Below, piece by piece: positions 46,333 through 63,731 of a stretch of DNA of 64,000 bases (positions are counted from its first letter, which is position 1; each line of letters starts with the position of its first letter). The notes under the pieces were generated by a model. The model saw only the letters and a program-made list of their open reading frames with translations, was not told the DNA's origin and did not search any database. Both the position numbers and the translations under genes were made by a program. The DNA is from Paracyclopina nana (Eukaryota; Arthropoda; Copepoda; Cyclopoida; Cyclopettidae): positions 6,222,501-6,286,500 of the forward strand of contig JAGUCH010000007.1 in the NCBI GenBank assembly GCA_019096065.1, read 5' to 3'.

Positions 46333-47615
46333 ATTTTCACACCACGAACATTCACACTTAACTGAATAATTTTCCTGACTTTTTGCGGCTATTTTCCCCT
46401 TTGGCCAAATCGATGAAAAAACTATTTATGGCTCTTTGACGAGATCATCTATATCCAGTTTTTCTGCTAATGAAACATTACATTAAAAAATCAAAGGAAT
46501 CTGAACTTTTAATTCCATATTTCCGAACGTTGAAACGTTGAATGTTTTCAAAAGTAGATGAACACCGCATTAAGGATCCAAGGAGCGGGCTTGTGAAATA
46601 TCGTATATTAAGGCTATAAAAGAGAGAGATATAATAATTTTCACCATTTTTTTTAGATTCGCTTTGACAGCCACAAGATGGATTATACAACTTTTTAAGG
46701 CCTTCATTGCATTGTTTACAGTCAATTTAAAAAAAAGATCTCTATTTGGAATACGTATTTCATGCATTGTTTTCAAGACCAGAAAAATGCTGACATTTTG
46801 TATAACTTGATGCCATCTTGCTCAAATGTCAACTTGTGAAAAAATGCTACAATTTGCCATATCTGCTCTAAGCTTCATCTCTTACTCCGCAAAGTTGCTC
46901 CAAATTATTAAGCTGCCTTAATTGCTTGTGCGTCATTTGTTGGCTAATTCGGTCTAATATGTTTCATGTGGCCAATTTTACGATGTTACAAATGGCTAAA
47001 TGCCAAGTAAAATAATGAGCAATAAACATGTCAAAAGTTGATATCATTTTTTGTCATTTTTTTTGCGCACAAAGCCAACAATAAACAATTATTCCTTGCA
47101 GTGATTTCAACTCAAAAATAAAAATATAGTACCATTATTTTTTGGCTCTTTACAAAAACTTTTGGCCTTGGCTCAATTCTAGTGAAATTTCAAGTGACTG
47201 ATCAGCAAAATGGGATTTTTCTGCCTTAAAGATTTTCATTAGTGAATAACCAAAATCTTTGGAATTTCATTGAAACAAAGGCGCTCCAAGCTCATAAAGC
47301 CACAAAGCAATAAGTGGAATTTCTGGTCCAAGGCTGATAGAATTCAGACAACCATGAATCAAAAAAAGTTTTCTAGCATGATGCCTATATGATGATTTTT
47401 TGGCAGAACACCGAGTTTATGATGGCAAATATGCGCTTGAAAAAGTGGTCTGCTTTTTGCTGTATGGAACTTTGAATAAGGCAGAAGCTAAGGAAGTGTT
47501 TTACACATGTCTGAATGAATTTAATGGTGTCAAGACATTTTTGATTCCTGTATACGAGCCGGTTTTCAGGGTTCAAGTGGGTTGCTATTAGTAACAGAGC
47601 CATTGAGGAGGAAAC
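46333..47615. other. Intergenic
   Basis: This is the upstream flank of both the mucin-like gene and the ML-domain gene. GTAGATGAACACCGCATTAAG (46554-46574) resembles the terminus of the foldback element at 20187-20623 but has no inverted partner nearby. No supported coding sequence was seen. Confidence 0.45.
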
Positions 47616-48427
47616 ATGCGTTATTTAATTCTGATCTCTTGCCTTTTTTCCGCGAGTTTCGCGCAATCCGGATTTTCCCCCGAATTGCAAGAAGCCATCG
47701 ATTTTTGCGGCAGTCTCACTGCGTTGACAGAGGGAAATTGCCCACCCAAACCTTCAGCACCGATTCCAAATGCTGACAAAACCTTCAAGGGTGCCAAAAA
47801 CATCAAACTGTGCAAACCCACGTAAGCCAACTACAAAAACTCATAATCATTCCCCAAAATTAACTTTAAATTTTTTTGCAGGGACGTTCCCGGACTGGTT
47901 AATCCTCAGCAGTTGTGGACCCTGACCAAGCTGAAATTTGTGGGGCTCAATGCCCATTTCAATGAGGAGAAAGGAAGATATGCACTGAGCAGTGGATCCT
48001 TTTTGATGGCTGTCAACTTTACTGCGCCCAAAAATGTGGACTTTTTGGTGGGACGAGCTGTGGGCATTCTCCCGGAATTGCCCAGAAAAGAGAGCTTTGA
48101 GAGGGACATTTGCAGCCCTTTCTTCCAGGATCCCTGCAAAATTCGCGCCTCAGGTAAAACAACATATTAGATAAAAGCTGATCTTCTTTGAGGCAGAACG
48201 AGTTTTTTGTAGGCCAATCCAGATGCCCTCTGGTGGAAGGAAATGATGTCAACTTGGCTGGGCTGATGGAGTCCAAGGGAAATTTCTATCCGGATTTGCC
48301 AGTCGATTTGCGCTTCGAGATCTACGAGTCACCTGTGGCTCAGCCTAACCAGTGTGTCACGCAAGAGACCTTGAGCCAATATGGGGAACCGCTCATTTGC
48401 TTCATCATCCCTGGTTACATTCAATAA
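47616..48427 (+). CDS. NPC2-like ML-domain secreted lipid-binding protein
   Basis: Three exons (47616-47821, 47882-48153, 48213-48427) give 230 aa. The signal peptide is MRYLILISCLFSASFAQ. The C-terminal half matches the MD-2-related lipid-recognition fold of NPC2 proteins: a DPCKIRASG strand, then CPLVEGNDVNL, then YPDLPVDLRFEIYE, and finally LICFIIPGY with the paired cysteine. The N-terminal half is longer than in typical NPC2 (about 150 aa), with an additional CGSLTALTEGNC segment. Arthropod NPC2 families are expanded and bind sterols, fatty acids or semiochemicals. The ligand here is unknown. The family call rests on pattern only. Confidence 0.65.
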
Positions 48428-48629
48428 CTGCAAACCTGATTAAAATCATGACGTAACAGAAAACAAGTTTCAGTATCGGAAACTGAAAACAACATCTCTT
48501 ATTTGCTTTGAAATCGTTAATTTGCCAAAAAAGCATCGATGACAGCAAAACTAATCAACCTGAATCAACCCTCATTCAGTGAAACTTACGCGTTTTATCA
48601 ATATAGAGTTTATGTCATCATGTAACATA

Positions 48630-49022
48630 GGGCGATCCCATATTCGAATTTTTAGTCAAGTTACCTTGCTAAAACAGCAACCTTGCTTGATCAGTCAAGT
48701 TCAGCTTGTTCTAGCCAAGTTCGGTTCCTTTTAGCTATGTTCAGTTAACCGCTGAGCTGACAAGCCAACGCGTTGTACATCAGCAGCTGATGAGCAAAGT
48801 TAGCTTTTCTCAATTAAGCAAGCTTCAGCTACTACGCATAAGAGAACACTTTTTGTAGCTAAGTTCAGCTTGGCAACTGAACTTAGCTAGGCAAGCAAGC
48901 TAGTACTACATAAAATTAAGCTAAGTTAAGTTCTACCTTCATAAATATCTGGGAACGGAACTGAACTAAACTTAACTTTTTACCTAACTTAACTTCACTA
49001 ACAGGTCAATATGGGAACGCCC
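48630..49022. mobile_element. 393-bp MITE, copy 1
   Basis: The ends are GGGCGATCCCAT at the left and, inverted, GGGCGTTCCCAT at the right, with TA on both sides (48628-48629, 49023-49024). The body repeats AAGTTCAG-type words. A second copy of exactly the same length, in opposite orientation, is at 52035-52427. Confidence 0.8.
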
Positions 49023-49054
49023 TACTGGATGATTTTCATACCTAACTCAAGCAA

Positions 49055-49660
49055 CACATTGACTTGAGAGAGAACCTAACCTAGACTTTGTCAACCACCC
49101 CTAAACCTATATATTTTCTGAAAGCTTATGTCCAAAGGGTTCGTTTGGTGGTAGTTTTAAAATCCTGGCCTATCCATCCTTATAACATAAAATATTAAAA
49201 AACCTCTAGTTCTCTTCAGCGTACTTTTTTCGATAAGTTAAGCTTCAAATACCCCTCCTAAAATCAAAAGGGCTAACTTTTTTTATTTCATAAGCAAATC
49301 GTTAAAATGTCCAGAAAAGGAGATATGGAGAGCCAAACTTTATGTTGGATTGTTACAAATGTTTTGCTACTTGAAAAATTGTCCCTCTCTTTCTCTTTTC
49401 CTGGTCATCCTAGCAACTTGCTTATAGAATAAAAAAAGTTAGCTCTTTTGATTTTATGAGGGGTCTTTGAAGCTGTGTTCAGTGAAAAAAGCATGCCGAA
49501 GAGAGCTAGAGGTTTTTTAAAATTTTATGTTATGAGGAGGGATAGGCCAGGATTTTAAAACTACCACCTAACAAACCCTTGGGACATAAGCTTTCAGAAA
49601 ATATATAGGTTTAGGGGTGGTTGACGAAGTCTAGGTTAGGTTCTCTCTCAAGTCAATGTG
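49055..49660. mobile_element. 606-bp foldback element with GCAA target duplication
   Basis: Arms of more than 200 bp (49055 to about 49285, and about 49425-49660) are near-perfect inverted repeats beginning CACATTGACTTGAGAGAG. GCAA flanks both ends (49051-49054 and 49661-49664). The loop contains no coding sequence. It inserted 32 bases from the neighbouring 393-bp MITE. Confidence 0.8.
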
Positions 49661-49803
49661 GCAAGGCAGTAAATGTCACATTACGACATAACCTAAACTT
49701 GGGTAAAACGAAGGAGTGCTAGCACGTTATAATAACTTTCAGTAAACTTGGGAACATTTCAGGTCTTAAAAAAAGTTGTCAATTAGAAGAAGAAGGATTA
49801 TTT

Positions 49804-51444
49804 TCATGATTGCTCCTCCAAAAATTCCTCAGTTGAAGGTGCATTCTTTTTCTTGACATAGAGATGGAGCACAGCAGGGTGCTTCCTCTTTATGTGCCTC
49901 TTCATGGCAGACTTCCTGGTAAATGTCTCAGGGCACTCTGGGCATGTGCAAGGCCTCGCCCCTTCATGAGCCACAGAGACATGTGTCTGCAGCTCTTTGG
50001 GCTCAAAAAAGGCCTTGTCACACTGGGTGCAGGCATGTGGCTTGGATCCAATGCCATGCTTGGAGGCCTTGTGCCTCTTGAGCTCGAAAGGCCTGCAGAA
50101 CTGCTTGCCACATAAATCACAGCAATAGTTATACCTCTCATGATGCCTCTGGTTATGCGTGTACAGTCCACCTTGGTTGCCAAACACCTTGTCACATTTG
50201 GTGCATGGGTAGTTCTTGAGATGTTCATGCACGTTCAGCCTGTGCGTTTTGAGCGAGGACGCGGAGCAAAATCCTCGGCCGCATTCGGCACACAAATGAG
50301 GCCGTTCCTTCATGTGCACGGAGCGCACGTGGATTTTGACAGTTTTGTTGTCAATGAAGGGCTTCTCGCAAATCGGGCACGTGACCGGACGTTCTCCCAG
50401 ACAAGTGAATTGCACGTGTTTCTTCAACGAGGCCTCGGACTTGAGCACAGTGTTGCAAATGTCACACTCAAACTCCTCTTGATTCCGACGATGTTTCACC
50501 ATCATGTGCAAATCCATCTTTTTCTCCTCCTTTTCGTATTTGCCGCACACCTTGCAGTAAATGACGTCGGCTATCACCGGCTGCAATTCCTCGGTTTCTT
50601 CTGGAGGATCTTCCATGAGGAAATCAGGATCGTCCAAGACCTCTTCTAACACCTCTTTCTTGTCAGCTACTTTTGAGGATCGTTTCCGTGATATTACTAC
50701 GCTAGCATCTTCCACCTGGAAATCCGGATCTAATTCTTCTTTCTTATGAGTGAGCTTCGAGGATCTTCTCTTCCTTGGTGGAGAATCTGGATCTTGATCA
50801 ACATCTTCCAGATCTTTAAAGCAAATCTTGGAGCTTTTTCTCTTTTGGCGAGGCTTCACTTTGCCAATGGTGACAGCCCATTTGCCCTTGGATTCCTCCG
50901 CAAGATTCTCAAGTTTAATGTCAGGTTTGATACCTTCAGAATCAAGAGCTTTTGCAACTGCCAGAGCTTCTTGAAGAAACCCACTCAAAGTTGATTGGTT
51001 GCAAATGATGACTTTGGCCTGCAGTTCTCGTTTCATGCCCAGCAAAAAGTTGAGCAGAACATCACGCTCAAAAATGGCCTCATTCACCTCGTCATCATCG
51101 GTGATGGCGAATTGAGCATTGGTGCAACGTTCAAGGTACTCTTCGATGGATTCTTCTTCATTTTGCCTTAAAGACTGCCTGATTTCCACTTTGTCCTTGA
51201 CTGACATTTGAGTCTTGAACTCGGCCAAAAGTTTCTCCTTGAGGAATGACCAATCCGTCAGGTTTCCCTCAAGGCTCAAGAACCAATCCAAAGCTGGCCC
51301 ATCCAGGTTTTCAGCTAGGATTTTCGCCTTGCTGAATCCACTCTTTCCATGCTCTTCCTCCACATCCTTCAAAAAAGCTTGGCAAGTCAACTCGAGCCTT
51401 CCATTTTGCCAGTAAGGGAAATTCCCTGTGAATTTTCCCCTCAT
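49804..51444 (-). CDS. GZ1: Gag-capsid-like domain plus eight C2H2 zinc fingers
   Basis: One coding exon, 546 aa. Residues 1 to about 165 match the Ty3/Gypsy Gag capsid pattern: LDGPALDWFLSLEG, FLKEKLLAEF, KVEIRQSLRQ, IEEYLERC, FERDVLLNFLLGMKRELQAKV, LSGFLQEALAVAK. A basic/acidic linker with KRKSSK-like nuclear signals follows, then eight C2H2-type fingers (residues about 285-520). The second is C2HC-like (KKHVQFTC). There is no CCHC knuckle, protease or reverse transcriptase. The likely role is a DNA-binding regulator that oligomerises through the capsid fold, by analogy with SCAN-zinc-finger proteins. CTTTCAG lies just before the ATG, so a 5' non-coding exon or leader is spliced on. It is the last gene of the five-member array and the most diverged. 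Confidence 0.85.
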   Translation of the reverse strand: MRGKFTGNFPYWQNGRLELTCQAFLKDVEEEHGKSGFSKAKILAENLDGPALDWFLSLEGNLTDWSFLKEKLLAEFKTQMSVKDKVEIRQSLRQNEEESIEEYLERCTNAQFAITDDDEVNEAIFERDVLLNFLLGMKRELQAKVIICNQSTLSGFLQEALAVAKALDSEGIKPDIKLENLAEESKGKWAVTIGKVKPRQKRKSSKICFKDLEDVDQDPDSPPRKRRSSKLTHKKEELDPDFQVEDASVVISRKRSSKVADKKEVLEEVLDDPDFLMEDPPEETEELQPVIADVIYCKVCGKYEKEEKKMDLHMMVKHRRNQEEFECDICNTVLKSEASLKKHVQFTCLGERPVTCPICEKPFIDNKTVKIHVRSVHMKERPHLCAECGRGFCSASSLKTHRLNVHEHLKNYPCTKCDKVFGNQGGLYTHNQRHHERYNYCCDLCGKQFCRPFELKRHKASKHGIGSKPHACTQCDKAFFEPKELQTHVSVAHEGARPCTCPECPETFTRKSAMKRHIKRKHPAVLHLYVKKKNAPSTEEFLEEQS

Positions 51445-51796
51445 TCTTCAGCCTGAAAGTTAAAAAAGAGAGAAACTTTCAATATTTTTGACTCAGCTTC
51501 CAAGGCAATTATTGGTTAGTTTTGGGGCTTTTTATGCACATTTTTTAAAATATTGTGATCACCTACTAGAACAAGCAAGGACTTAAAAACGTCTTCTGGA
51601 TTTTTCACCAAATAGATGTTGAGTTTGCCCCTAAAATCCACCACTATCACATGGGTCAAGCCAAACAGAGCTCTTTTTTGATCAAACGTCTTTACACATG
51701 ATCTGGAAAAAGCAATAGTAACCTTTACTATCATCAAATATAGTAGTTCTAATTGAGTAGTTGATCGTGTACTAAAAATCATAAAATAAGAGATCT

Positions 51797-54136
51797 TCAA
51801 CATAAGGCAGATGGTGGCGGTTGCTGCTGTGGAATATTGCTAGTCTTCACCACGTTGCTATGCACGTTTTTAATGTGTTTCTCCAGGTTGTTTTTGTAGC
51901 TGGAACGATGGTTACACATGGGACACGAGAACTTCCTCTGCTCGTGCGTGGCTCGAATGTGCTCACGTAGGATATCTGAAGAAGGAAAAAACAGTTGAAA
52001 ACACTCAAACTACTCCAACTAAATCAATTCAAGAGGGCGTTCCCATATTGACCTGTTAGTGAAGTTAAGATAGGTAAAAAGTTAAGTTTAGTTCAGTTCC
52101 GTTCCCAGATATTTATGTTGGTAGAACTTAACTTAGCTTAATTTTATGTAGTACTTGCTTACTTGCCTATCTAAGTTCAGTTGCCAAACTGAACTTAGCT
52201 ACAAAAAGTGTTCTCATATGCGAAGTAACTGAAGCTCGCATAATAGAGAAAAAGTAACTTTGCTCGTGCGCTTCTGATGTTCAACGCGTTGGCGTGTCAG
52301 CTCAGCGGTCAACTGAACATTGCTAAAACGAACCAAACTTGGCTAGAACAAGCTGAACTTAACTGATCAAGTAAGGTTGCTGTTTTAGCAAGGTAACTTG
52401 ACTAAAAATTCGAAAATGGGATCGCCCTAAGAAGAAGGAAATCATGGCGTAATCCTTCATCAAAATTAATTTATGAATTTGTACTACGTACTTCTGTATG
52501 CTGAGGAGAAGTCGCACAATGTGCACTTGTGCGGCTTGGTATTCAAATGCACCCCATTGGTGTGCTCTCGCAAGCTGGATTTGCCCCAGAACTTTTTGGG
52601 GCAGTAGGCACACTTGTGCTTGCCCTCGAGATTCTTGTGCACAACGTCGTCATGCATTCTGAGCTTGGCTGCCACCTTGAACACTCGCCCACATCCTGGA
52701 TGAGGGCAAGGGTAACTTTGGCCTCCATTTGTACTGGGATGCACAGCCATTTTGTGCTGCCTCAACGTTGACTTGGTGTTGTAAGGCACTCCGCACTCGT
52801 CACACATGAAGTTGCCCTTGTCGTGATTGTTCAAGATGTGAGCCTGCAAGATTTGCTTGTAGGCAAACTTCTTGTCGCACTGGTCACATTGGAGCCATTC
52901 TCCTTGATCTCCATGCGCTGAGCGGCAGTGGATCAAAAGGCCACCAGAGGTTGAATACTGCTTACCACATTTATCACAAGCAAATGGCTTCTCGTTCAAG
53001 TGCACAATTTTGATGTGCTTCTGGGCGTCCGTGATGGTGAAGAACTTCTTGTCACATCGATCGCAAGGAAACGGCTTCTCCTTGTAATGCTTGCGAATCA
53101 TGTGGACCTGAAGGCTGTGACTTTTCGTATATGGCCGGCGACAAGCGAGGCAGAAGACCTGATCGCCATTTCGCTCTGCGTGGTACTTGATTTGATGCAG
53201 CACAAACTTCTTCAAGTCGTAAAAGTCTTGAGCACAAGTTTGGCAGTTGTACTGGGAGTTGTCAGTGTGGTTCTTGTAAATGTGCAGCCTGAGCATCCTG
53301 GAGGTGCGGAAAGTGGCCTCACATGTGGAGCACTTGAGCTTTTCCGACTCAGCTTGAGGCTCAGAGTGTTCACTCTTGATGTGACTTTTCAACTGCTTCT
53401 CATTCTTGAATGGCATCTCACAATGTGAGCAAATGGACTCAGACTCCTCCTTTTTCACCACCACAAAATCCAGATCCTTGGTGTCTTCCTCCAGGTCTTC
53501 CTCCTCATCTTCCTCCTCCTCCTCGTCCTCCTCCTCGTCTTCTTCATCCAGTTCATCCAGGTCAAATCCAGTGAAGTCGTGAATGGCCTCCATTTCTGTT
53601 TTGACTCCGGAATCTAGACGCTCCTCTTTGATGGCAGCCTCGAGAAAGTCTGAGAGAGAGGAGCCTTCACTTTGCATCACTTTCAGCTGAATTTCTTCGC
53701 GAAGGCCGATGAGAAAGGTCAATAGGACATCTCGCTCAAAGGCTGCATCTTGCGTCTGCTCATCACAAATGAGCTTTTCAGCTTCTTTACACCGATTGTA
53801 GAAATCCCTCACATCTTCTCCATTCGATTGCTTCAAGGACTTCCTCAACTCAGCCTTCATTTGAATGGTCATTTTGCCCCTGAACTTGGCCTTCATGGCC
53901 CTCTTGAGCTCAGTCCATGTGTTGAGCGGCTCAAACTGAGCCCATTCCATTGCTGGGCTGGTAAAAGCTTGTACTGCATATGTATATGCATCTTGGTCAT
54001 TCCACTTGAAGGCCTCAATTTGACTCTCTACTATGGCACAAAATTGGTCACAAGAAAGGCCTTCTCCATTCAGGCCAACAGGGTTGCCACTGTATCGGGG
54101 CAATAAGACAAAGCCTTTGTCCTCCACTTCAGACAT
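51797..54136 (-). CDS. GZ2: Gag-capsid-like domain plus twelve C2H2 zinc fingers
   Basis: Exon 1 is 52492-54136 and exon 2 is 51797-51975, joined in phase for 607 aa. The Gag-like part (residues about 1-175) has MEWAQFEPLNTWTELKRAM, AELRKSLKQS, FYNRC, FERDVLLTFLIGLREEIQLKV and LSDFLEAAIKEE. A Glu/Asp-rich linker follows, then twelve C2H2 fingers. The intron interrupts finger 11 and carries a 393-bp MITE. Spliced finger 11 (SAYRNILREHIRATH) lines up with GZ5 (SAYQGHVKDHIRASH), which supports the junction. The gene ends in a PQQQPPPSALC tail. A TTTTTCAG acceptor is seven bases before the ATG and only 55 bases after the GZ3 stop codon. Confidence 0.85.
52035..52427. mobile_element. 393-bp MITE, copy 2, inside the GZ2 intron
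   Basis: This is the same element as 48630-49022 in inverted orientation, exactly 393 bp, with GGGCGTTCCCAT and GGGCGATCCCAT ends. The right flank is TA and the left is GA. It fills most of the 516-bp intron that splits zinc finger 11 of GZ2. Confidence 0.8.
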
Positions 54137-54198
54137 AACGTTTCTGAAAAATGAGAAAATATATATTTATGACAGCACAGCCAATTTGTTTTCTTGCT

Positions 54199-56289
54199 TC
54201 ATTTCAAATTTGGATTTATACCATCTGAAAGATTAATTTTACTGAGTCGAGCTTTCTTTTCAGCAATATTTGCTTGTCGCTCCAATTCTCTGACTTCACT
54301 TGGCATAGGCACTTGGTGAGCAACTTTCAAGTGCTTGGTCAAGTTGCGCTGGTATTTGGCAACAAATTTGCAGCCATCAAAGTTGCACCCAAAGATCACA
54401 TTTTCATGCATCACTTTGACATGATCACTGAAAACACTCACGTAAGCTGAGGCAAAGTCACACTTGTCACACTGATACTTTTTCAAGTTCAAATGGACAT
54501 TTTCATTGTGTTTTTTCAAAGTCTTGTTATTGTTGAAGGCTTTGCCACACTGAGAACATTTGAATGCTTTTTTCTTTTCAGAGTGGGCAGTTCGCAAGTG
54601 AGCATTTACCCTTTTATTCGAAGCATATCTTCTGTCACAGTCCTCACGAGGACACTCATAGGGTTTTTCTTCAGTGTGACGGGCTAAAATGTGATCTTTA
54701 AGGGCTGATCTGCTAGAAGAAATAAACCCACATTCTTCACATACAACTGGTTTGCGACAGATTCCAGAATGGATAGCTTTTTTGTGGCTGTACAAAGATT
54801 CAGCGTGTGGAAAAGCCTTGCCACATTCTTCACAAAAGTAATCCTGCCCAATGCCATGTACACTTTTTAAATGCCTCCTTAAATGACCATTGGTAAGCAA
54901 TTTTTCTTCACATTTATCACATTGGAAATTTAATTCCTTGTTGTGCTTAACTTTAATGTGCCTTCTCAGTTCATGGTTTTGGACAAATGACCAGTCACAA
55001 TGAGGACAAACAAATGGGTCAGTGTTAAAGTGGTCTTTCATGTAGTGCTTGTAGAGCAAATTTTTTGACATCCCACTCCTTTCGCACAAGTCACAATTGA
55101 TGGTATTATCAGGGCCTCTTTTGCCATGCTTACAATTCTTGTGAATGAAGAAGGCTAGCTTTCCTTTAGAAGTGAAATCGCGACCACAGCAAATGAGAGC
55201 TTCATTTGGATGAGCATAGTCCATATGCTTTCTTAAAACTCTTGATGACTTACACAAGAGACCACATAACACACACTTCTTTGTCTTCCCTTCTGCACCC
55301 TCAGCTAAGCTGTCCTTTTTATCTTCATCAGCTTTATGTTGGGCTTTCATGTGCATAGAGAGCTTAACTCGTAGCTTGTATTTGAGTCCACACAACTTAC
55401 ATTCCCATTTGGGTAAAAGGGGCTTATTGCAGTCATAATCAGGGTCATCCTCTGGATTAAAACTAGAATCATCTGAATCATCTGATTTGGCACCATTAAA
55501 GTTCCAAGACTGAAGGCTCACTTTCTTCCTCTTTCTTTTTGGCGCTTTGACTTCCTCATCTTCATTTTTTGCATGGAAATCCTCACATTTGATGTCATTG
55601 CCTTCTTCCACTTCTTGTTTGTATTTTTCTTGGTGAAGCTCCAGATCCACGATGTGAGGATCCATGATGTGGTCATCATCTTCATAGTCACTTTTGTGGC
55701 CAAAGTCATCATCACCCCTTTCAAATATGTCACTTTGAAAAGGGAAAATGATATCCTCCTCTTTTTTCACATCTTCAACAATGAAATTAAACTCAAGCTT
55801 GGCTGCCATGGTGAAATATGAGTCCAAAGTAGTGAGATTGTCCACCAAAATTAGAGCCTCATACAGCTCAGGTCTCAGTCCAAGAAGGAAGCTGATTAAA
55901 ATGTCCCTCTCCACCACAAGTTCTTCATCATCATCACAAATTAGAAATTGTGTCATGATGCAACGGTCAAGGAAACCTCGGCAGGTTTCGCCAATGTCCT
56001 GGCAAAGATTTCTCCTGAGCTCAACTTTCTCAGTGATCTTCAGACTCACATTGAACTTAGCAGCTATGGCATATTTGAATGCATTCCAGTCCAATTTAGC
56101 AGCCTTTCTTGACCACCTTTGAGCATCATCTTTCAAGTGAGCTAAAGCATAGTCTTTCTTCTCTTCATCTGTCAAGTCACTTCTGTAGCTGATTGAGTGC
56201 AAAAATTGCCCAATGGTCGGGCAATTGTCACCAATTTTAGGCTGATGGCTGAACCAAATCTCATCACTCAAATTCATCTTGACATTCAC
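54199..56289 (-). CDS. GZ3: Gag-capsid-like domain plus twelve C2H2 zinc fingers
   Basis: A single 696-aa frame. The Gag-like domain (residues about 1-175) includes LDWNAFKYAIAAKF, VELRRNLCQ, FLDRC, VERDILISFLLGLRPELYEAL and LDSYFTMAAKLE. An acidic linker with KRKRKKVS nuclear signals and twelve C2H2 fingers follow. The third finger is atypical (LICCGRDF). The alternative start at 56277 (MNLSDE) aligns with the GZ4 start and may be the real one. The Gag half is almost identical to GZ4 at the DNA level while the fingers have diverged. It begins 144 bases after the GZ4 stop and ends 62 bases before the GZ2 ATG. The role as a sequence-specific nuclear regulator is inferred. Confidence 0.85.
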   Translation of the reverse strand: MNVKMNLSDEIWFSHQPKIGDNCPTIGQFLHSISYRSDLTDEEKKDYALAHLKDDAQRWSRKAAKLDWNAFKYAIAAKFNVSLKITEKVELRRNLCQDIGETCRGFLDRCIMTQFLICDDDEELVVERDILISFLLGLRPELYEALILVDNLTTLDSYFTMAAKLEFNFIVEDVKKEEDIIFPFQSDIFERGDDDFGHKSDYEDDDHIMDPHIVDLELHQEKYKQEVEEGNDIKCEDFHAKNEDEEVKAPKRKRKKVSLQSWNFNGAKSDDSDDSSFNPEDDPDYDCNKPLLPKWECKLCGLKYKLRVKLSMHMKAQHKADEDKKDSLAEGAEGKTKKCVLCGLLCKSSRVLRKHMDYAHPNEALICCGRDFTSKGKLAFFIHKNCKHGKRGPDNTINCDLCERSGMSKNLLYKHYMKDHFNTDPFVCPHCDWSFVQNHELRRHIKVKHNKELNFQCDKCEEKLLTNGHLRRHLKSVHGIGQDYFCEECGKAFPHAESLYSHKKAIHSGICRKPVVCEECGFISSSRSALKDHILARHTEEKPYECPREDCDRRYASNKRVNAHLRTAHSEKKKAFKCSQCGKAFNNNKTLKKHNENVHLNLKKYQCDKCDFASAYVSVFSDHVKVMHENVIFGCNFDGCKFVAKYQRNLTKHLKVAHQVPMPSEVRELERQANIAEKKARLSKINLSDGINPNLK

Positions 56290-56433
56290 ACCAGTTTTCA
56301 GATCTTATTAAGCAGCCATGATGACAAAGCACAAATTCCTTGTGTAACTCAAGTGGATTGCTTCTCTCTGAAAGTGAAAAATATATCAGTTAGATACACA
56401 GCCAAATTTTTCAAGAATAAGGATAAGTCTTCC

Positions 56434-58542
56434 TTATGGGTTCTTTTTCTTGAGTTGGTGAGCCTTTTTGATGGCAATATTTGCTTTTCTCTGCATTTCT
56501 CTTATTTCCCCTGGCAAAGGAATTTGGTGAGCAGCCTTCATGTGCTTGCTCAAATTGTACTTGTATTTGGCAACAAATTTGCAACCATCAATGTTGCAAT
56601 CATAAATCAGATTTTCATGCATCACTTTTACATGGTCTTTGAAGACACCCAAATACCCGGTGGCAAAATCACACTTGTCACACTGGTGCTTTCTTAGATT
56701 CAGATGGATTGTTTCATGGTGCCTTTTCAATGAGGCTTTATGAATGAAGCTTTTGTCACACTTGGAGCATTTATGTGTTGCTTTCTTTTCAGAGTGTGCT
56801 TTTTTAAGGTGATTTCTCAACAATCGACTGGATGCATACTTTTTGTCACAATCCTCATTAGGACACTCAAACAGCTTTTCTTCAATATGACGAAGAATGT
56901 GAATGTTCAGAGCTGACTTGCAACTTGAAACAAATCCACATTGTTCACATATAGCTTTTTTAGGGGGAAGCCCAGAATGAGTGTTTCTCCTGTGATGATA
57001 GAGAGTCTCTTTATGATTGAATGCCTTCCCACACTCTTCACAAACATAATCTGGACCAATGCCATGCGCCTTTTTTAAATGCCTCCGCAAAGCACCATTA
57101 TGGGGGAATTTTTCTTCACACTTATTGCACTGGAAATTGAATTCTTTTGTGTGCACATTTTTTATGTGTACTCTCAATTCATGTCTGAGCACAAATGACC
57201 TGTCACAGTGAGGACAAGGAAGAGGCTCTGTGTGAAAATGGTCAGTCTTGTAATGTTTGTTGAGTGATTTTTTAAACAATCCAGTTTTATCACACAAGTC
57301 ACAATTGATGGACTTGTCAGGGCCTCTTTTACCATGCTTGTAATTTTTGTGAAGCAAAAAGGACATTTTCCCTTTAGATGTATAATCATGACCACAGCAA
57401 ATGAGTGCTTCATTTGGATGAGAAAACTCCAAATGTTTCCTTAAAACTTTGGCAGATTTGCACAACAGACCACACAATAGGCACTTGTTTTTCTTTTTGT
57501 CTTTGCCATTATCTGTGATGTTTCCTGTTGGCACATTTTCTTCATCTTCTTCATGCTGTGCCTTCATGTGCAACATGAGTTTTACTTTCAACTTGTACTT
57601 CAGTCCACATAGCTCACATTCATAATTTGGCAGCAGGGGAACGTAGGGTTTTTTAGAGGCATTGTCCGAATCCTCATCCTCATCATCAGGATTGTAGCTT
57701 GAATCCTCAGAGTCATCAAACTCAGATTCACTTGAATGGCACGATTTCCGTTTCTCTTTCTTTCTTTTTCTTTTTGGCCTGCTCATTTTCTCCTCTTTCT
57801 CAATTTTATTTTCTTGGCTTTCTCTCAATTGTCCTTCGTCCTCTCTGACGTTGCCACCTTTAGAAGGTTTGTCAATGTCTAATGATTGCTCAAGTTTATT
57901 AGTTTTGTCGTCAGTGCATTTATCATCGCCCTCATGTTCTCTTTTGCTCATAACTTCATCATCTCTGCCTTCAAATGTTTCACTTTCAAAAGGGACTGTA
58001 TCATCAACATCTTTGTTTTCCTCCTCTTTTTTCACATCTTCAACAATGAAATCCAACTCAAGCTTGGCTGCCATGGTGAAATATGAGTCCAAAGTTGTGA
58101 GATTGTCCACCAAAATCAGAGCCTCATACAGCTCAGGTCTCAGTCCAAGAAGGAAGCTGATTAAAATGTCCCTCTCCACCACAAGTTCTTCATCATCATC
58201 ACAAATTAGAAATTGTGTCATGATGCAACGGTCAAGGAAACCTCGGCAGGTTTCGCCAATGTCCTGGCAAAGATTTCTCCTGAGCTCAACTTTCTCAGTG
58301 ATCTTCAGACTCACATTGAACTTAGCAGTTATGGCATGTTTGAATGCATTCCAGTCCAATTTAGCAGCCTTTCTTGACCACCTTTGAGCATCATCTCTCA
58401 AGTGAGCTAAAGCATAGTCTTTCTTTTCTTCATCTGTCAAGTCACTTCTGTAACTGATTGAGTGCAAAAATTGCCCAATGGTTGGGCAATTGTCACCAAT
58501 TTTAGGCTGATGGCTGAACCAAATCTCATCACTCAAATTCAT
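56434..58542 (-). CDS. GZ4: Gag-capsid-like domain plus twelve C2H2 zinc fingers
   Basis: A single coding exon of 702 aa starting at ATG 58542, directly after the acceptor TTTTTTTCTTGCAG. The Gag-like domain is the near twin of GZ3, with five residue differences noted over the first 170 or so. The linker is longer and very acidic/basic (RPKRKRKKEKRK, SEFDDSEDSSYNPDDEDED). Twelve fingers follow in the same order as GZ3, including the atypical LICCGHDY finger and the duplicated DKCDFATGY finger before the last one. It ends in a basic KKAHQLKKKNP tail. The recent GZ3/GZ4 duplication is clear from gene order, finger count and Gag identity. Confidence 0.87.
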   Translation of the reverse strand: MNLSDEIWFSHQPKIGDNCPTIGQFLHSISYRSDLTDEEKKDYALAHLRDDAQRWSRKAAKLDWNAFKHAITAKFNVSLKITEKVELRRNLCQDIGETCRGFLDRCIMTQFLICDDDEELVVERDILISFLLGLRPELYEALILVDNLTTLDSYFTMAAKLELDFIVEDVKKEEENKDVDDTVPFESETFEGRDDEVMSKREHEGDDKCTDDKTNKLEQSLDIDKPSKGGNVREDEGQLRESQENKIEKEEKMSRPKRKRKKEKRKSCHSSESEFDDSEDSSYNPDDEDEDSDNASKKPYVPLLPNYECELCGLKYKLKVKLMLHMKAQHEEDEENVPTGNITDNGKDKKKNKCLLCGLLCKSAKVLRKHLEFSHPNEALICCGHDYTSKGKMSFLLHKNYKHGKRGPDKSINCDLCDKTGLFKKSLNKHYKTDHFHTEPLPCPHCDRSFVLRHELRVHIKNVHTKEFNFQCNKCEEKFPHNGALRRHLKKAHGIGPDYVCEECGKAFNHKETLYHHRRNTHSGLPPKKAICEQCGFVSSCKSALNIHILRHIEEKLFECPNEDCDKKYASSRLLRNHLKKAHSEKKATHKCSKCDKSFIHKASLKRHHETIHLNLRKHQCDKCDFATGYLGVFKDHVKVMHENLIYDCNIDGCKFVAKYKYNLSKHMKAAHQIPLPGEIREMQRKANIAIKKAHQLKKKNP

Positions 58543-58882
58543 CTGCAAGAAAAAAATGGGAGTTGTACATTAAAGCTACAAAGCAAGACTATCACAGAAT
58601 GTAAAATATAGCATGGCACTCAAGATAAAATATTAACATTGACTTTATGCCTATCCTCTTCAGTTTGTGCATTTTTCAGTAGGAAGGTGTCTTTTGAGCT
58701 AGCAAGGAGACTGGTGGTGATTGCACAAATGACTTAGTCAAGGGTGGTTCTGCCACACAATATGTAACACGATTGGTCAGTCAGTGAGATTTGAATTATG
58801 ATCCACTCGACACTTTTGATAAGATTAATGCTTCTGTTGAGTTTTTTTTGCATTCAATCTACCATGTTTCTCCTGGGATCTT

Positions 58883-60667
58883 TCAGTTTGCGCATGCCTC
58901 CAATGTTGAAGGCTCTATGTTCTTGGTGTGTATGTTGCGAATATGCTTGTCCAAGTTGCCTTTATAGCTGGATTGGTGATTGCACATAGGATATGGACAT
59001 GGGTATTTGACTGCTTCGTGACTTGCACGAATGTGGTCCTTGACATGCCCTTGGTAGGCAGAGGCAAATTCACAATGTGGGCATTTATGTGGCTTCTTGT
59101 TCAAGTGCACCCCATTGATGTGAGACTCCAAGCGCTGTCTGGAATGGTACTTTTTGGGACACATGTGACACACATGTGTGCCTTCCACCTTTTTATGCAC
59201 TCGCTTCACATGATTGCGAACTTGGAAGGGCACACGAAAGCGTTCCTTGCATTCCGGAAAGTAAGGGCACCCCAGCTTTTTCCCTTTGTCCTCGGAGTGA
59301 TCAGTGATTTTGTGAATCCTCAAAGCTTCTTTGGTGTTGTTGGCAGCTCCACACTCGTCACAAATGAAGGTGCCTCGATTATGCCTGTTCAAGATGTGAG
59401 TGGTGAGGGCCGACTTGTAGGGGAAGCTCATGTCACACTTGTCACACTGCAGGCGCTCACCTCTTCCATGGATCGAGGCTTGGTGAGCGGACAGGCCTCC
59501 CTCTGAAGCGTAGGATTTGCCACACTCTGAGCACTCATAAGGTCTCTCCATGAGGTGCACAATCCTCACGTGGGTCTTCAAGTTGGAAGCAGAGCTGAAT
59601 GTCTTGGGACACACCTGACATGAAAATCTCTTGTTGGTCACGTGCTTGGCATTAATGTGGGCTTTGAGGCTGTTCTTGTTGGAGTACTCTTTGGAGCAGA
59701 AGTGGCAGTACATCAGAGATTGATCTTCCTCCTCGTTCTTGTCATCCAAGGTATGCTTGGCCAAAATGTGACTAGCCAACTTGGTGGAGCTGGTGAAAAC
59801 TTGGTGACAGTCGTGACACTTGTGACACAGCTCTGGATGAGTGTGAATCAAGTGGAAGTTGTGCACCTTACGAGTGGCAAAAGGTATTGAGCAGGTGTCA
59901 CAATTGAGCTTTGCTGTGGCTTTGACATGCTCGTTTTCAGCATGAGAGGCTAAATTTCGAGTGAGGTAACCACACTGGTTGCACTTTTCTTCGGGGCGAG
60001 TGCCAAGCTCAGATTTGACTAGGAAATCAATGAGAGGTTTCTCCTCGTCATCCTCATCGATGTCATCATTGTCAGATATGATATCTTCAAAATCGTCATC
60101 TCCGTCGAAATCGAGCTGAGCTAATTGGGCATCCATGACCTCAGATTTGAGTGAAGTCTGCACAATTTCAACTTTGATGGCCGCCTCCAGAAAGGAGCTC
60201 AGAGTTTTGGCATCACTTTTTATGACAATGTCTTTGAGGTCGGGTTTGAGTCCTTGCAAAAAGGTGAGGAGCAAGTCCCTGTTGTCATGCAACAAATCCC
60301 AATTGGAGTCGATTTGGCAGAGCACAGATTTGCACCGGTCGAAGAAGTCTTGCACATTTTCGCACTCCTCTTGAACTAGGCTTTGCCTCAGCTCAATTTT
60401 CTCCCTCACGTTCATGACTTGAGGCTGGCATTGGGCAAGCAAAGCCTGCTTGAAGTCCTCATATGTGAGGAACTTGCAATTGCTGAAATTGGCATGCAAG
60501 CAAGCGTTGCTAGTAATTTTGAGCTTTTCTGCATCATTCCATTGGTTGACTCGAGCCAGAGATTCAAAGATGAACAAAAATTGGCCACAAGTCAGACAAT
60601 CCTGGTCAGGCACTCCATAAAACACTGGAAGGTTGACACTGAACTTTTTCTCCTCGTCCTCTTCCAT
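58883..60667 (-). CDS. GZ5: Gag-capsid-like domain plus twelve C2H2 zinc fingers
   Basis: A single coding exon of 594 aa. The ATG at 60667 (MEEDEEKKFS) is chosen because an acceptor (TTTTTTTCATTGCAG) lies 17 bases upstream. The Gag-like domain (residues about 1-180) shows FYGVPDQDCLTCGQFLFIFE, FKQALLAQC, IELRQSLVQE, FFDRCK, NRDLLLTFLQGLKPDLKDIV and LSSFLEAAIKVE. After an acidic linker come twelve C2H2 fingers. The last, with CPYPMCNHQSSYKGNLDKHIRNIH, is homologous to the GZ2 terminal finger. Its acceptor is 23 bases beyond the eIF2D stop codon, too close for a separate promoter and cis-spliced intron of the size used in this genome. Confidence 0.87.
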   Translation of the reverse strand: MEEDEEKKFSVNLPVFYGVPDQDCLTCGQFLFIFESLARVNQWNDAEKLKITSNACLHANFSNCKFLTYEDFKQALLAQCQPQVMNVREKIELRQSLVQEECENVQDFFDRCKSVLCQIDSNWDLLHDNRDLLLTFLQGLKPDLKDIVIKSDAKTLSSFLEAAIKVEIVQTSLKSEVMDAQLAQLDFDGDDDFEDIISDNDDIDEDDEEKPLIDFLVKSELGTRPEEKCNQCGYLTRNLASHAENEHVKATAKLNCDTCSIPFATRKVHNFHLIHTHPELCHKCHDCHQVFTSSTKLASHILAKHTLDDKNEEEDQSLMYCHFCSKEYSNKNSLKAHINAKHVTNKRFSCQVCPKTFSSASNLKTHVRIVHLMERPYECSECGKSYASEGGLSAHQASIHGRGERLQCDKCDMSFPYKSALTTHILNRHNRGTFICDECGAANNTKEALRIHKITDHSEDKGKKLGCPYFPECKERFRVPFQVRNHVKRVHKKVEGTHVCHMCPKKYHSRQRLESHINGVHLNKKPHKCPHCEFASAYQGHVKDHIRASHEAVKYPCPYPMCNHQSSYKGNLDKHIRNIHTKNIEPSTLEACAN

Positions 60668-60709
60668 TATGACAAAATATGGGCCTGCAATGAAAAAAAA
60701 GATCACAGG

Positions 60710-62455
60710 TCATTTTTTACCCTTCTTCTCCACAGCCAACTCAAGACCACGTATGTATTTCCTGGGTATTTTGTAATGTTCGCATAAAAGTTTGGCCACA
60801 AAGATCGCCTGGTTTCCTTGCACGAGCACTTCAATCACCGGATTCCCGTTGGCCTTTTTCTTGTTGGCAGCCTCGTGAATGCTCGTCGAGGCCGCCACAC
60901 CCACTTGACATTTGTGCGCAAACTCTTGCAAATTGATGCCGAAAACATCGAGGTTTTGCACAAGTGTGACCTTTTTGTTTCCGGACCGATTCCCAATGAT
61001 CATTTCGATCAGGTCCAATTTGCCCTTGCACACAGTGGGCCTCGCGTCAAGGCCGAATTGGATCGAGTAGCCTTTGCTCATCTTGGACTGAATCCTTGAG
61101 TGCAGCTTTTCCCACTTGAAAGTGACCACATTGTTTTCTCCCTTCACCAGGACAGCTTGAGCCAACACTGGATCCAAGTTGACCACTGTCTTGTCATCCG
61201 GATGCTGAAGGCCATTTTCGGTGACGTAATTACGTACGCATTCACGAACATCTTGGGCTGTCATACCGCAGCCTTTCTCCACCTTGAGAGCCTTGAAAAA
61301 CAAGGCCACGTCGCCTCCGGGAACGATGTAAATCTCATTGATGATGGGAGGCTCGTACTCGGCGTTTTCAGGCTTGTTAGCCTCAGATGCGGGCTTGTCA
61401 TATTTCACCACTCTGTAGGACACAACATCTGGATGATCCTGGTTGATCTCGGTGATGGTTTCGACCCCTTTTTTGGCCTCTGAGATCTTGAGGAACCCTT
61501 GAGCCTGCTTCTCCGCGAGGAATTTCGACAGCTTCTTCCACTTGGTTTTCTTCACATCAAGGTTGTCACAGTGGGGAGGACAAGCTGGGACAATGTGAGT
61601 CCTGAAAAAGTTCGAGGTGAGCAGAGGGAATTCAGTTTTCTTCGTGTTCAACGTTTTGCAAGCTCGTAAGAAAGCATCCTCCAAAATGTCATCCAGGTCT
61701 AATAGCTGCTCATTTTTCTCCTCGACTTGAAGCTCAGCAATGGCAACCTCAACATCATTATCCAGCTTTTTTTCTTCTATTTCTTCTTCTTGATCAATAA
61801 TATCTTCGGGAGCTTCGTCACTTGCGTCGATATTTTCAGGTACTCCAAGTTCTGGCAATGCTGGCTTACCAAAATGGACCCAAAGCTGATCACCAAGACA
61901 ATGCAGAACATTGAGGGCTTTGCCACGTTTGCCAGACATGTACATATCTTCACTGGAGAGGCAAGCTCTTCCAATGGCCACCAGGGCTTTGTTGGTGGTG
62001 AGGAAGACACCGATTTGGTCACCTTTCTTGATCTTGCCCTCACAATAGGCCTTGATGCCCAAGGCCTCATTCACAACCACTCCCGGCAGCATCAAATCCG
62101 CTCCATTGGCCAACTTGGCCAAAACTGGAGGGTAAGTTGGGAAAGCCATTGGCACGAGTCCTGGACACTGCCAAAGCGTGTACAAGGTAGGAAAAACCTC
62201 TTTGGCCTTTTCGAGCTCAAAGAAGAGAGTCACGTTTTTCTGCTTTTGGTACAGGAGCACAGCGTCCCCGCCAAAAGTCTCAATTTTGGTGACCAAAAGC
62301 TCCTCCTTGTTGGGTATCAACTCGTTGAGAGCATCTTGGTCGACTTCCGGATCGGAGAAGTAGGGGAAACTTTTCCGAATGTCAGCCTTGAACTTCTTCT
62401 TGTCAGAGCCCTTCATCTGAGAGCTGGACTTGATCCTGAACGGCTTGGTGAACAT
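60710..62455 (-). CDS. EIF2D: Eukaryotic translation initiation factor 2D (ligatin)
   Basis: A single coding exon of 581 aa (human 584). The ATG at 62455 directly follows TTTTTCAG, and its first residues MFTKPFRIKSSSQMKGSDKKK match the conserved eIF2D start. Domains in order are an N-terminal DUF1947 and PUA-like region (about 1-170), a winged helix (about 270-340), a SWIB/MDM2-like region (about 385-470) and a C-terminal SUI1 domain (about 480-570, with the LVQNLDVFGINLQEFAHKCQ segment). The protein binds 40S subunits, delivers or releases tRNA at the P site, and recycles post-termination complexes. PYM, another 40S-binding factor, is the upstream neighbour 151 bases away. The acidic linker around residues 215-245 is lineage-specific. 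Confidence 0.95.
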   Translation of the reverse strand: MFTKPFRIKSSSQMKGSDKKKFKADIRKSFPYFSDPEVDQDALNELIPNKEELLVTKIETFGGDAVLLYQKQKNVTLFFELEKAKEVFPTLYTLWQCPGLVPMAFPTYPPVLAKLANGADLMLPGVVVNEALGIKAYCEGKIKKGDQIGVFLTTNKALVAIGRACLSSEDMYMSGKRGKALNVLHCLGDQLWVHFGKPALPELGVPENIDASDEAPEDIIDQEEEIEEKKLDNDVEVAIAELQVEEKNEQLLDLDDILEDAFLRACKTLNTKKTEFPLLTSNFFRTHIVPACPPHCDNLDVKKTKWKKLSKFLAEKQAQGFLKISEAKKGVETITEINQDHPDVVSYRVVKYDKPASEANKPENAEYEPPIINEIYIVPGGDVALFFKALKVEKGCGMTAQDVRECVRNYVTENGLQHPDDKTVVNLDPVLAQAVLVKGENNVVTFKWEKLHSRIQSKMSKGYSIQFGLDARPTVCKGKLDLIEMIIGNRSGNKKVTLVQNLDVFGINLQEFAHKCQVGVAASTSIHEAANKKKANGNPVIEVLVQGNQAIFVAKLLCEHYKIPRKYIRGLELAVEKKGKK

Positions 62456-62606
62456 CTGAAAAACAATAATGACGACACAGTTATTACAGATGGCCAAGTG
62501 ATGTCATTCAAATGGGCAAAGCGGAAATTTAATGGTTGACTTTTTTCTTGCTGAACAGAACTGAAGATCCCTGATGATTGAAAAGTGCCCATCGTGACTC
62601 TGAGAG

Positions 62607-63385
62607 TTAGACCACTATTTTGGCCACCGCATCTTCAAGCTGAGCGATTTCCTCGAGCATCACGGATTTGCGAGCCACCTTCTCAAGCTGCTCTGGCTCC
62701 AAATGAGGCAAGGATCCATCGGCGAGTTTCGCTTCCAAGGTCTCAATGTCACGCAGCTTCTTCTTCAAGTTACGCAGCTTCTTGGCAGGATCAACATTGG
62801 CCTCCGAGTCCGAGGCTTGATACGTTTCATGAACAACAATGGATTCAGGTTTCACAGCCGGGGCAATAAAAGTACTTGATTGAGGTTGCTGTTTCTTCTT
62901 CTTCTTGTTGGACTTTTTCGTCATGGCGGACAAGTCGACGTTGGAGGGTCCTAACACGATCGAGTCTGGCAAACCGGGAATCTTTGGCGGGCCTCGCATC
63001 AAGGCCTTGTGGTCGAATGTGTCAATCTTCATGTCGAAAATGCCTCCACCTCCATTCGATCCCGACAAACCTGCCGAATCGAGAAAGCAAACGTAAATCT
63101 CAACGTAACAAATTCAAAAGAGATTTCAGGCTTGGGGACAGTTGGGGAAAAGTAACACCACTTTAAGACTGAGCCATGCTTACCAGGAATTGGATTAGAT
63201 TCACGAGACTTGGCAAATTGCTTTCCCTTGCTCTCATAGAGAGGCACTTCATCTTGGGGAACATAGCCCTCCTTGATTCGGCGCGGTTTCCGCCAAGATC
63301 CATCCGGACGCTTCGTTCCGGGCATCATCAGATGACCGGTGTCCGGATCACGATAATACGTCGCTTGCTGATCAGTGAGTGACAT
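62607..63385 (-). CDS. PYM1: PYM, partner of Y14 and Mago
   Basis: Two exons (63184-63385, 62607-63070) give 221 aa. The N-terminal Mago-Y14-binding motif is clear: [20 protein letters not shown] followed by [13 protein letters not shown]. The C-terminus has the family's basic coiled-coil ([20 protein letters not shown], then [20 protein letters not shown]). A Lys-rich patch lies in the middle. The protein binds ribosomal 40S subunits and dismantles exon-junction complexes in the cytoplasm during translation. It is transcribed in the same direction as ENY2 (346 bases upstream) and eIF2D (151 bases downstream). Confidence 0.93.
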
Positions 63386-63731
63386 TTCAGCAAGAAAAGT
63401 TGAACTTTTCGTCAAGTTGTCACTTCTGTCTGCTTTTGGGTTTATTTTGTTTGTGTTTTCTCTTTGAAATTCTCAGCTCCACTCGACTACTTGACTTATT
63501 AAGTGAATTTGCCACGAGTCAAGTGGGGCAGTGGGAACGTCAGCGTTTTTTGACGAAAGAGTGTATCGACCGTGGAAAATGTTACCAGACAGTATAAAAT
63601 TCGTCAAATCACTGTTTTGGCATTTTTGCATACTTAATGGATCTTTTTATTCAAGTTAGTGCGTACACATGTTTACTAAAATACAGATAAATACTGAATT
63701 CAACATATTCTCATTCTTTATTTGAAATTGC

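Follow-up and report, generated by a model that had tools for sequence, protein, structure and literature searches.

Five genes, GZ1 to GZ5, lie in tandem on the minus strand between positions 49804 and 60667 of the 64-kb window (the whole stretch of DNA analyzed), in the compact genome of an invertebrate. In each of them, a Ty3/Gypsy Gag capsid (CA) domain of ~170 residues is followed by a charged linker and by C2H2 zinc fingers. GZ1 (49804–51444; 546 aa) is encoded by one exon and ends in eight fingers. GZ2 (51797–54136; 607 aa) has an acidic linker, 12 fingers, and two predicted exons. GZ3 (54199–56277; 692 aa) and GZ4 (56434–58542; 702 aa) share a KRKRKK motif in their linkers, and GZ5 (58883–60667; 594 aa) has an acidic linker. 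All ORFs were read from their first ATG. The CA domain covers residues 1–168 of GZ1 (50941–51444; 37.5 bits with PF03732 when scanned alone) and of GZ2 (53633–54136; PF03732 scan and alignment), and was delimited by alignment in GZ5 (60164–60667). Open frames, Pfam matches, and profile comparison confirm the five-gene array of capsid–finger fusions proposed in a preliminary description of this DNA. The accompanying statement that capsid and fingers share one exon holds for four of the five genes. In GZ2, the final one and a half fingers are encoded by the second of the two predicted exons (52492–54136 and 51797–51975); the predicted intron between them (51976–52491, 516 nt, GT..AG) leaves the reading frame of the last fingers intact, and the open frame before splicing spans 52484–54136. 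This predicted intron contains a dispersed repeat of approximately 400 bp, and other dispersed repeats are found near the array.

The PF00096 profile matches all five proteins (E 3e-25 to 2e-30). By a strict pattern, 8, 12, 11, 11, and 11 fingers are counted from GZ1 to GZ5 (GZ2 after splicing); with one extra degenerate finger in each of GZ3 and GZ4 and one short finger in GZ5, recognized by eye, there are 8 fingers in GZ1 and about 12 in each of the other proteins. Few of the linkers between fingers resemble canonical DNA-binding ones (3/7, 3/11, 1/10, 0/10, and 2/10, respectively), and some of the arrays may therefore bind RNA or protein. Upstream of the fingers, the KRKRKK motif of GZ3 and GZ4 is similar to nuclear import signals and the GZ1 linker carries basic stretches, while the import motif K[KR]x[KR] does not occur in the linkers of GZ1, GZ2, and GZ5. 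The DNA-contact positions of the fingers have changed at 22 of 44 sites between GZ3 and GZ4, compared with 57 of 135 other variable finger positions (p = 0.39), and at 32 of 44 between GZ2 and GZ5, compared with 89 of 134 (p = 0.46). Accelerated change at the contacts, as in a KRAB-like family targeting transposons, was not found in this test, which covers two paralog pairs of one genome. The earlier suggestion that the proteins are aimed at transposons thus finds no support, since the contacts are no more divergent than the rest of the variable finger sites; furthermore, the arrays can be aligned finger by finger and just five members were found.

The PF03732 profile (Retrotrans_gag, curated cut-off 24.1 bits) scores above its cut-off in two of the five proteins, GZ1 (35.1 bits) and GZ2 (24.9 bits). 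GZ3, GZ4, and GZ5, scanned singly, gave no Retrotrans_gag match; they align with GZ1 and GZ2, match them with E values of at most 1e-10, and are assigned to the Ty3/Gypsy capsid because of this homology. Three of the five domains match PF19259 (Ty3_capsid), all below cut-off (best E 4.6e-5), and the remaining Pfam matches of the isolated domains are weak, the best being DUF4864 in a single domain (E 0.0032). We compared a profile of the five GZ domains with a profile of four gags from resident Gypsy elements, three of which (L072, L073, and L076) adjoin frames with reverse transcriptase, RNase H, and integrase, the fourth being L075. The hhalign probability is 97.7 and the score 88.1, against a mean of 13.6 (SD 2.6, maximum 28.6) for 200 column shuffles of this comparison and 23.3 for the reversed control. 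Taken separately, both the N-lobe (69.6; maximum of 100 shuffles, 20.9) and the C-lobe (37.6; maximum of 100 shuffles, 17.8) of CA match as well. Against 177,635 sequences of solved structures, a profile combining GZ and Gypsy gags gave nine matches, all to Arc (E 0.0019–0.64); when the Gypsy gags were left out, an Arc structure was matched at just E 0.076. Matches to designed PPR protein structures (PDB, E 1.9e-10) were discarded as artifacts of summed weak repeats of about 5 bits each. Among viral contigs, 64 pattern matches were obtained and none was confirmed as a relative. Taken together, the Pfam matches, the hhalign scores relative to shuffles, and the match of both lobes show at the sequence level that the GZ N-terminal domain is, as the preliminary description had proposed, homologous to the Ty3/Gypsy Gag capsid; both lobes are kept.

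When four GZ CA domains were used as queries against the genome, just the five GZ loci were recovered below E 0.01. In the tree, the GZ domains stand on one side and the four Gypsy gags on the other, with a support of 100/100. Apart from GZ3 and GZ4, the closest pair is GZ2 and GZ5, both in the capsid (41% identity) and in the fingers (45%), which agrees with one fusion followed by duplication. We infer that GZ1 to GZ5 are host genes that arose when a Ty3/Gypsy capsid was captured once beside a C2H2 array and the fusion was then duplicated in tandem. From the start codon to about nt 525, that is over the capsid domain, GZ3 (55753–56277) and GZ4 (58018–58542) are nearly identical (96–100% per 100-nt window over roughly the first 500 nt). 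The dS is 0.05 in the capsid (168 codons) and 1.2 in the fingers, pointing to a recent gene conversion restricted to the CA segment. The dN/dS values between these two genes, 0.24 in the capsid (on just five silent and five replacement changes), 0.32 in the linker, and 0.20 in the fingers, are well below 1; the ratio was estimated for this pair alone because silent sites are saturated in most others. The GZ3/GZ4 identity begins at AG|ATG, at the splice acceptor of GZ4. The 21 nt preceding the GZ3 ATG were considered as a spliced leader, which a genome search allowing up to three mismatches did not support: one exact copy (the sequence itself) and seven places with three mismatches were found, and the reversed control gave four places.

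Upstream of GZ5, on the same strand, lie an eIF2D gene (60710–62455), whose stop codon is 42 nt from the GZ5 ATG, and a PYM-like gene (62607–63472). The Mago-bind domain of the latter is found in the frame 63029–63472; an overlapping frame (62607–63113) has no Pfam match and was assigned to the PYM-like gene by position. The splice acceptors, located 0–90 nt ahead of each ATG, and the short gaps suggest that the GZ genes may form an operon with PYM and eIF2D. We also searched the window by tblastn with eight queries from resident elements (four gag and four pol frames). Below E 0.01, two gags matched GZ5 (7.9e-6, within its CA domain, and 2.8e-4); the next match was a gag on GZ2 (E 0.012), and the two remaining gags had no match on any of the GZ genes. 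With the pol queries, the lowest E value in the window was 0.21. No protease, reverse transcriptase, integrase, or LTRs were found beside the capsid domains, and long direct repeats in 46300–62600 are limited to those among the GZ genes themselves. Pfam detects a zf-CCHC zinc knuckle after the capsid in three of the four resident gags (E ≤ 0.1, one above cut-off) and none in GZ1 to GZ5 at E ≤ 1. The Pfam scan and the tblastn search thus bear out the earlier remark that the genes lack a zinc knuckle, protease, and reverse transcriptase, and the copies do not sit beside an intact Gypsy element with pol, an arrangement that had been named as contrary to the fusion.

Several known families combine related modules. 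Like GZ, the SCAN-C2H2 proteins are described as having an N-terminal domain similar to the Ty3/Gypsy Gag capsid, C-terminal C2H2 fingers, and genes in small clusters, of two to seven in the case of SCAN (PMC5509000; PMC4592553). However, SCAN corresponds to the C-terminal portion of a Gmr1-like capsid (PMC4592553), whereas GZ has the N-lobe as well, and SCAN and KRAB are reported as typical of vertebrates (PMC5509000), whereas GZ comes from an invertebrate. Six families are listed for the isolated GZ domains at E ≤ 10, and SCAN (PF02023) is not one of them; a search of the genome with the SCAN profile gave no match, a result of limited weight as the control genomes gave none either. By these profile comparisons GZ is not a SCAN family, because no SCAN match was found and both lobes are kept. 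From this one genome, these two observations lend partial support to the earlier view of the array as a case independent of SCAN. In insects and other arthropods, the ZAD-C2H2 proteins similarly join an N-terminal module to a C2H2 array, and both ZAD and SCAN domains form homodimers, but ZAD is a zinc-bound domain (PMC5509000) and the GZ module a capsid. No PF07776 match is listed for GZ1 to GZ5 at E ≤ 1, and three ZAD matches above cut-off occur in this genome. Arc and dArc have a two-lobed capsid of Ty3/Gypsy origin (PMC6525542), as does GZ, where the lobes are recognized from sequence alone; Arc is also the best match of the GZ capsid among solved structures. Mammalian RTL/SIRH, PEG10, and PNMA are likewise described as host genes derived from metaviral capsids (PMC11011659). 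GZ differs from PNMA in that a PNMA-like gag of the same genome, tried as the source of the capsid, was rejected (hhalign probability 0.3 with the GZ profile). To our knowledge, Arc has no C2H2 array, and we know of no tandem C2H2 arrays of the GZ kind in the RTL/SIRH, PEG10, and PNMA genes.

The homology of the GZ capsid to resident gags, together with at least 98 PF03732 places besides GZ1 and GZ2 in the genome (among 100 scored), might indicate a restriction factor whose capsid joins and spoils Gypsy Gag shells and whose fingers bind element DNA or RNA. Particles can indeed be antagonized by a capsid-derived protein, as reported for RTL8 acting on PEG10 (PMC11684626). This role is nevertheless unlikely. 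GZ1 shares just 18–22% identity with the four resident gags in the capsid, a distance that makes co-assembly doubtful, and the finger contacts, which show no faster change, and the GZ3/GZ4 capsid dN/dS of 0.24 also speak against it. The same ratio, with its five silent and five replacement changes, argues against the capsid domain being a passive relic, carried by ordinary zinc-finger transcription factors after loss of oligomerization, as do the 24 columns invariant across the five domains, seven of which are residues common to the four Gypsy gags (K69, L92, Q94, E98, R106, G136, and L153 in GZ1 numbering). The strong divergence of the paralogs (29–41% capsid identity outside GZ3/GZ4) and the absence from GZ5 of a tryptophan common to the other four would agree with such a relic, which we consider quite unlikely.

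The presence of both lobes, Arc as the closest solved structure, and the position of the fingers, where the resident gags have the zinc knuckle that GZ lacks in the Pfam scan, could also be accounted for by an Arc-like carrier, with GZ shells packaging RNA and the C2H2 fingers replacing the lost nucleocapsid knuckle. This is very unlikely, as an array of some 230–400 residues would be bulky inside a shell, the KRKRKK motifs of two members suggest the nucleus, and tandem C2H2 arrays are in general mostly DNA binders. Finally, the element origin of the capsid and the dispersed repeats nearby might suggest that the array belongs to a mobile element or consists of decaying insertions. With all five frames open, one gene carrying a predicted intron, five genomic places alone below E 0.01 in the searches with four CA domains, no pol match in the window below E 0.21, and long direct repeats in 46300–62600 confined to the GZ genes, this explanation is extremely improbable.

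In our opinion, the GZ proteins are probably oligomerizing regulators that bind chromosomal sites and derive from one capsid capture followed by tandem duplication. They most likely work like the SCAN zinc-finger proteins, as oligomerizing nuclear DNA binders. GZ proteins would be expressed, located in the nucleus, and bound to DNA, and the domain family implies that they would oligomerize. The fingers are predicted to recognize specific sites on the chromosomes. Through the two-lobed capsid domain, the proteins would be linked as dimers or larger assemblies, which would hold bound sites together or tighten binding, as thought for SCAN and ZAD; the basic motif of the GZ3 and GZ4 linkers is a candidate for nuclear import, and the GZ1 linker has basic stretches. 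A more specific and unlikely reading is that of a second capsid–finger origin using a whole two-lobed capsid, in which GZ proteins bound to DNA would seed capsid-like lattices on chromatin, and conversion limited to CA would preserve the co-assembly of GZ3 with GZ4 despite fingers that recognize different sites.

The SCAN zinc-finger proteins are thought to derive from a capsid captured in vertebrates (PMC4592553; PMC5509000), and few domesticated elements have been described in nonmodel organisms, crustaceans above all (PMC12863088). Among the matches listed by a literature search on gag–C2H2 fusions, no invertebrate case is apparent from titles and the beginnings of abstracts. Wang and Han (2021) is said to be a survey of co-opted gag genes, and Emerson and Thomas (2011) reportedly deals with the origin of SCAN. 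The presumed capture of the SCAN capsid would have been a single event. As judged from its predicted domains, the GZ arrangement resembles that of vertebrate SCAN zinc-finger proteins and includes a larger portion of the capsid. If true, a separate fusion in an invertebrate would mean that new regulators can arise repeatedly by the coupling of a self-assembling capsid with DNA-binding fingers. GZ would then separate a general feature, oligomerization, from the peculiarities of SCAN, namely its one lobe and its KRAB partners, and, with both lobes kept, the formation of a capsid lattice on DNA becomes testable.

GZ1-GZ5 form an array of five genes on the minus strand, at 49804-60667 of the window. 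They all encode an N-terminal domain of ~170 residues, a linker of 64-137 residues, and terminal C2H2 fingers, which Pfam identified in 5/5 proteins. GZ2 carries a predicted 516-nt GT-AG intron, whose splicing would recover the last finger and a half present in the paralogues. A dispersed repeat of approximately 400 bp is found as two inverted copies (92%), one within this predicted intron (52027-52429) and the other beyond GZ1 (48628-49030). Of 368 first-pass candidates in the genome, 40 places were scored, the present one included, all at 91% or more; by its length and copy number, this repeat is MITE-like. Shortly 3' of the GZ1 stop codon lies an inverted repeat (49055-49341 and 49374-49660), a putative long hairpin or fold-back element whose 287-nt arms match at 87% and are separated by 32 nt.

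The preliminary description assigned the N-terminal domain to Gag capsids. Retrotrans_gag (PF03732) is above the Pfam cut-off in GZ1 and GZ2 and was not found in GZ3, GZ4, and GZ5. Ty3_capsid matches the isolated domain in three of the five proteins, always under the cut-off, and the remaining Pfam families are weak, the top one being DUF4864 in one member (E 0.0032). Alignment of the five domains reveals 24 invariant columns. In this 92-Mb genome of 10 contigs, which contains many retroelement copies, GZ1 and GZ2 are the top two among 100 scored PF03732 places. Of the resident retroelement loci L072-L077, the pol frames of L072, L073, and L076 were scanned; reverse transcriptase, RNase H, and integrase were present in 3/3. 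The profile of the GZ capsid domains aligned over 132 columns with a profile of four Gypsy gags (L072, L073, L075, and L076), with a probability of 97.7 and an E value of 1.7e-12 for this single comparison. The score was 88.1, against a maximum of 28.6 in 200 column shuffles of the GZ profile and 23.3 for the reversed profile. Each capsid lobe alone also matched the gags: 69.6 for the N-lobe (maximum of 100 shuffles, 20.9) and 37.6 for the C-lobe (shuffle maximum, 17.8). In tblastn searches of the window, the L073 gag matched GZ5 (E 7.9e-6) and GZ2 (E 0.012) and the L072 gag matched GZ5 (E 2.8e-4); those of L074 and L076 matched none of the five genes. Against solved structures, every one of the nine sequences retrieved by a combined GZ and Gypsy gag profile was Arc (E values between 0.0019 and 0.64), and the GZ-only profile retrieved three: Arc (E 0.076), a P40/C42 protein (0.32), and Arc2 (1). 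The Pfam matches of GZ1 and GZ2 and the excess of the gag profile score over the shuffles uphold, at the sequence level, the prediction of a Gag capsid domain. The PNMA-like gag of L074 was rejected as the GZ source, the profile comparison giving no match. L074 and L077 belong to one element family; the L074 gag, the one scanned with Pfam, exceeds the PNMA cut-off (35.3 bits vs 25) and is followed by a long frame, and L077 contains one 1742-aa open frame.

The GZ genes had also been described as devoid of zinc knuckle, protease, and reverse transcriptase, and this holds: Pfam listed no zinc knuckle in 5/5 proteins, and the best tblastn match to pol in the window had an E value of 0.21. Between 46300 and 62600, the direct repeats of at least 30 nt are those between GZ genes and a single one of 34 nt, none resembling long terminal repeats. 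Genome searches with the GZ1, GZ2, GZ4, and GZ5 domains (the GZ3 domain is nearly identical to that of GZ4) each returned the same five GZ places; the next matches were weak (E 0.0128 or worse), many overlapping the scored PF03732 places, and as the first pass was limited, distant members could be missed. The dN/dS ratios (Nei-Gojobori) between GZ3 and GZ4 are 0.24 for the capsid, 0.32 for the linker, and 0.20 for the fingers. In the other pairs, silent sites are at or close to saturation (dS at least 1.95 or beyond measure), which suggests that the family is old.

In a tree of the five GZ and four Gypsy capsids, the GZ sequences lie on one side of a branch with 100/100 support, their internal order being partly unresolved. 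The finger-array tree groups GZ2 with GZ5 (86/93) and GZ3 with GZ4 (96/92), with a very long branch for GZ1 and a long one for GZ5. A single fusion followed by duplication fits best, in a comparison covering a few resident Gypsy lineages. The GZ3 and GZ4 capsids differ by 5 silent changes over 168 codons (dS 0.05), whereas linker and fingers give dS values of 1.46 and 1.21, respectively. The stretch of near-identity begins at AG|ATG and tapers off around nt 525, the capsid end. The simplest reading is that gene conversion recently affected the capsid segment and nothing else, either by chance or under selection that would keep both proteins able to pair. A spliced-leader cDNA as the cause of this identity received no support from a leader-sequence test.

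Genes for a PYM-like protein (Mago-bind) and, downstream of it, eIF2D lie close upstream of the array on the same strand (60710-63472). Only 42 nt separate the eIF2D stop from the GZ5 ATG and 62 nt the GZ3 stop from the GZ2 ATG; the remaining gaps between GZ genes are 340, 156, and 352 nt, the last measured from the predicted GZ2 exon 2. A pyrimidine-rich splice acceptor precedes each GZ ATG at 0-90 nt, and an acceptor is also present immediately 5' of the eIF2D ATG. The small gaps, the acceptors, and these neighbors suggest a polycistronic unit resolved by trans-splicing, a candidate seven-gene operon. Trans-splicing of polycistronic units is known in several animal groups, among them nematodes and tunicates (PMC7986045). 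Elsewhere in the window, two very long threonine-rich, mucin-like open frames (2989-10191, 2400 aa; 43731-46211, 826 aa) show internal repeats by eye. Gly/Tyr-rich repeats (39527-40006 and 41773-42372), whose acidic spacers contain KR sites (KREAEAEPEA, GKRSADAEA), resemble by eye secreted cuticle or neuropeptide-like precursors.

Like Arc, GZ is a capsid domestication; Arc, unlike GZ, is not known to carry C2H2 fingers. In contrast to SCAN, the capsid-derived module of vertebrate zinc-finger proteins, GZ proteins have no PF02023 match and retain both capsid lobes. By its gene content the host is an animal, and ZAD matches in the genome hint at an arthropod. A large cluster of C2H2 finger frames occupies about 6.88-7.61 Mb of G000:C5; in three of its loci (L003, L007, and L008), Pfam found no gag domain at E ≤ 0.001, with 25/26 families covered for L003. 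At least four of the cluster loci share a start resembling MNKC..CG..FK..I.LKKH.

An animal-wide survey tied zinc-finger gene numbers to retroelements in many groups but found no such tie in dipteran flies; the terms gag and SCAN are both absent from its main text (PMC10547256). The proposal that GZ proteins target transposons was not borne out: the finger contact positions are no more divergent than other variable positions, and the family is small. The GZ3 and GZ4 linkers contain a KRKRKK motif, which fits with nuclear import; of 2000 linker shuffles, 2.3% (GZ3) and 3.3% (GZ4) equaled or exceeded the observed number of K[KR]x[KR] motifs. GZ1 has other basic stretches, and the GZ2 and GZ5 linkers are mainly acidic. 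According to PMC5509000, vertebrate SCAN and arthropod ZAD modules both dimerize zinc-finger proteins, and PMC6525542 describes SCAN as sharing the capsid fold, present in two copies in a complete capsid. On the model of these modules, the GZ capsids probably oligomerize DNA-bound GZ proteins, which would work by analogy with SCAN zinc-finger proteins.
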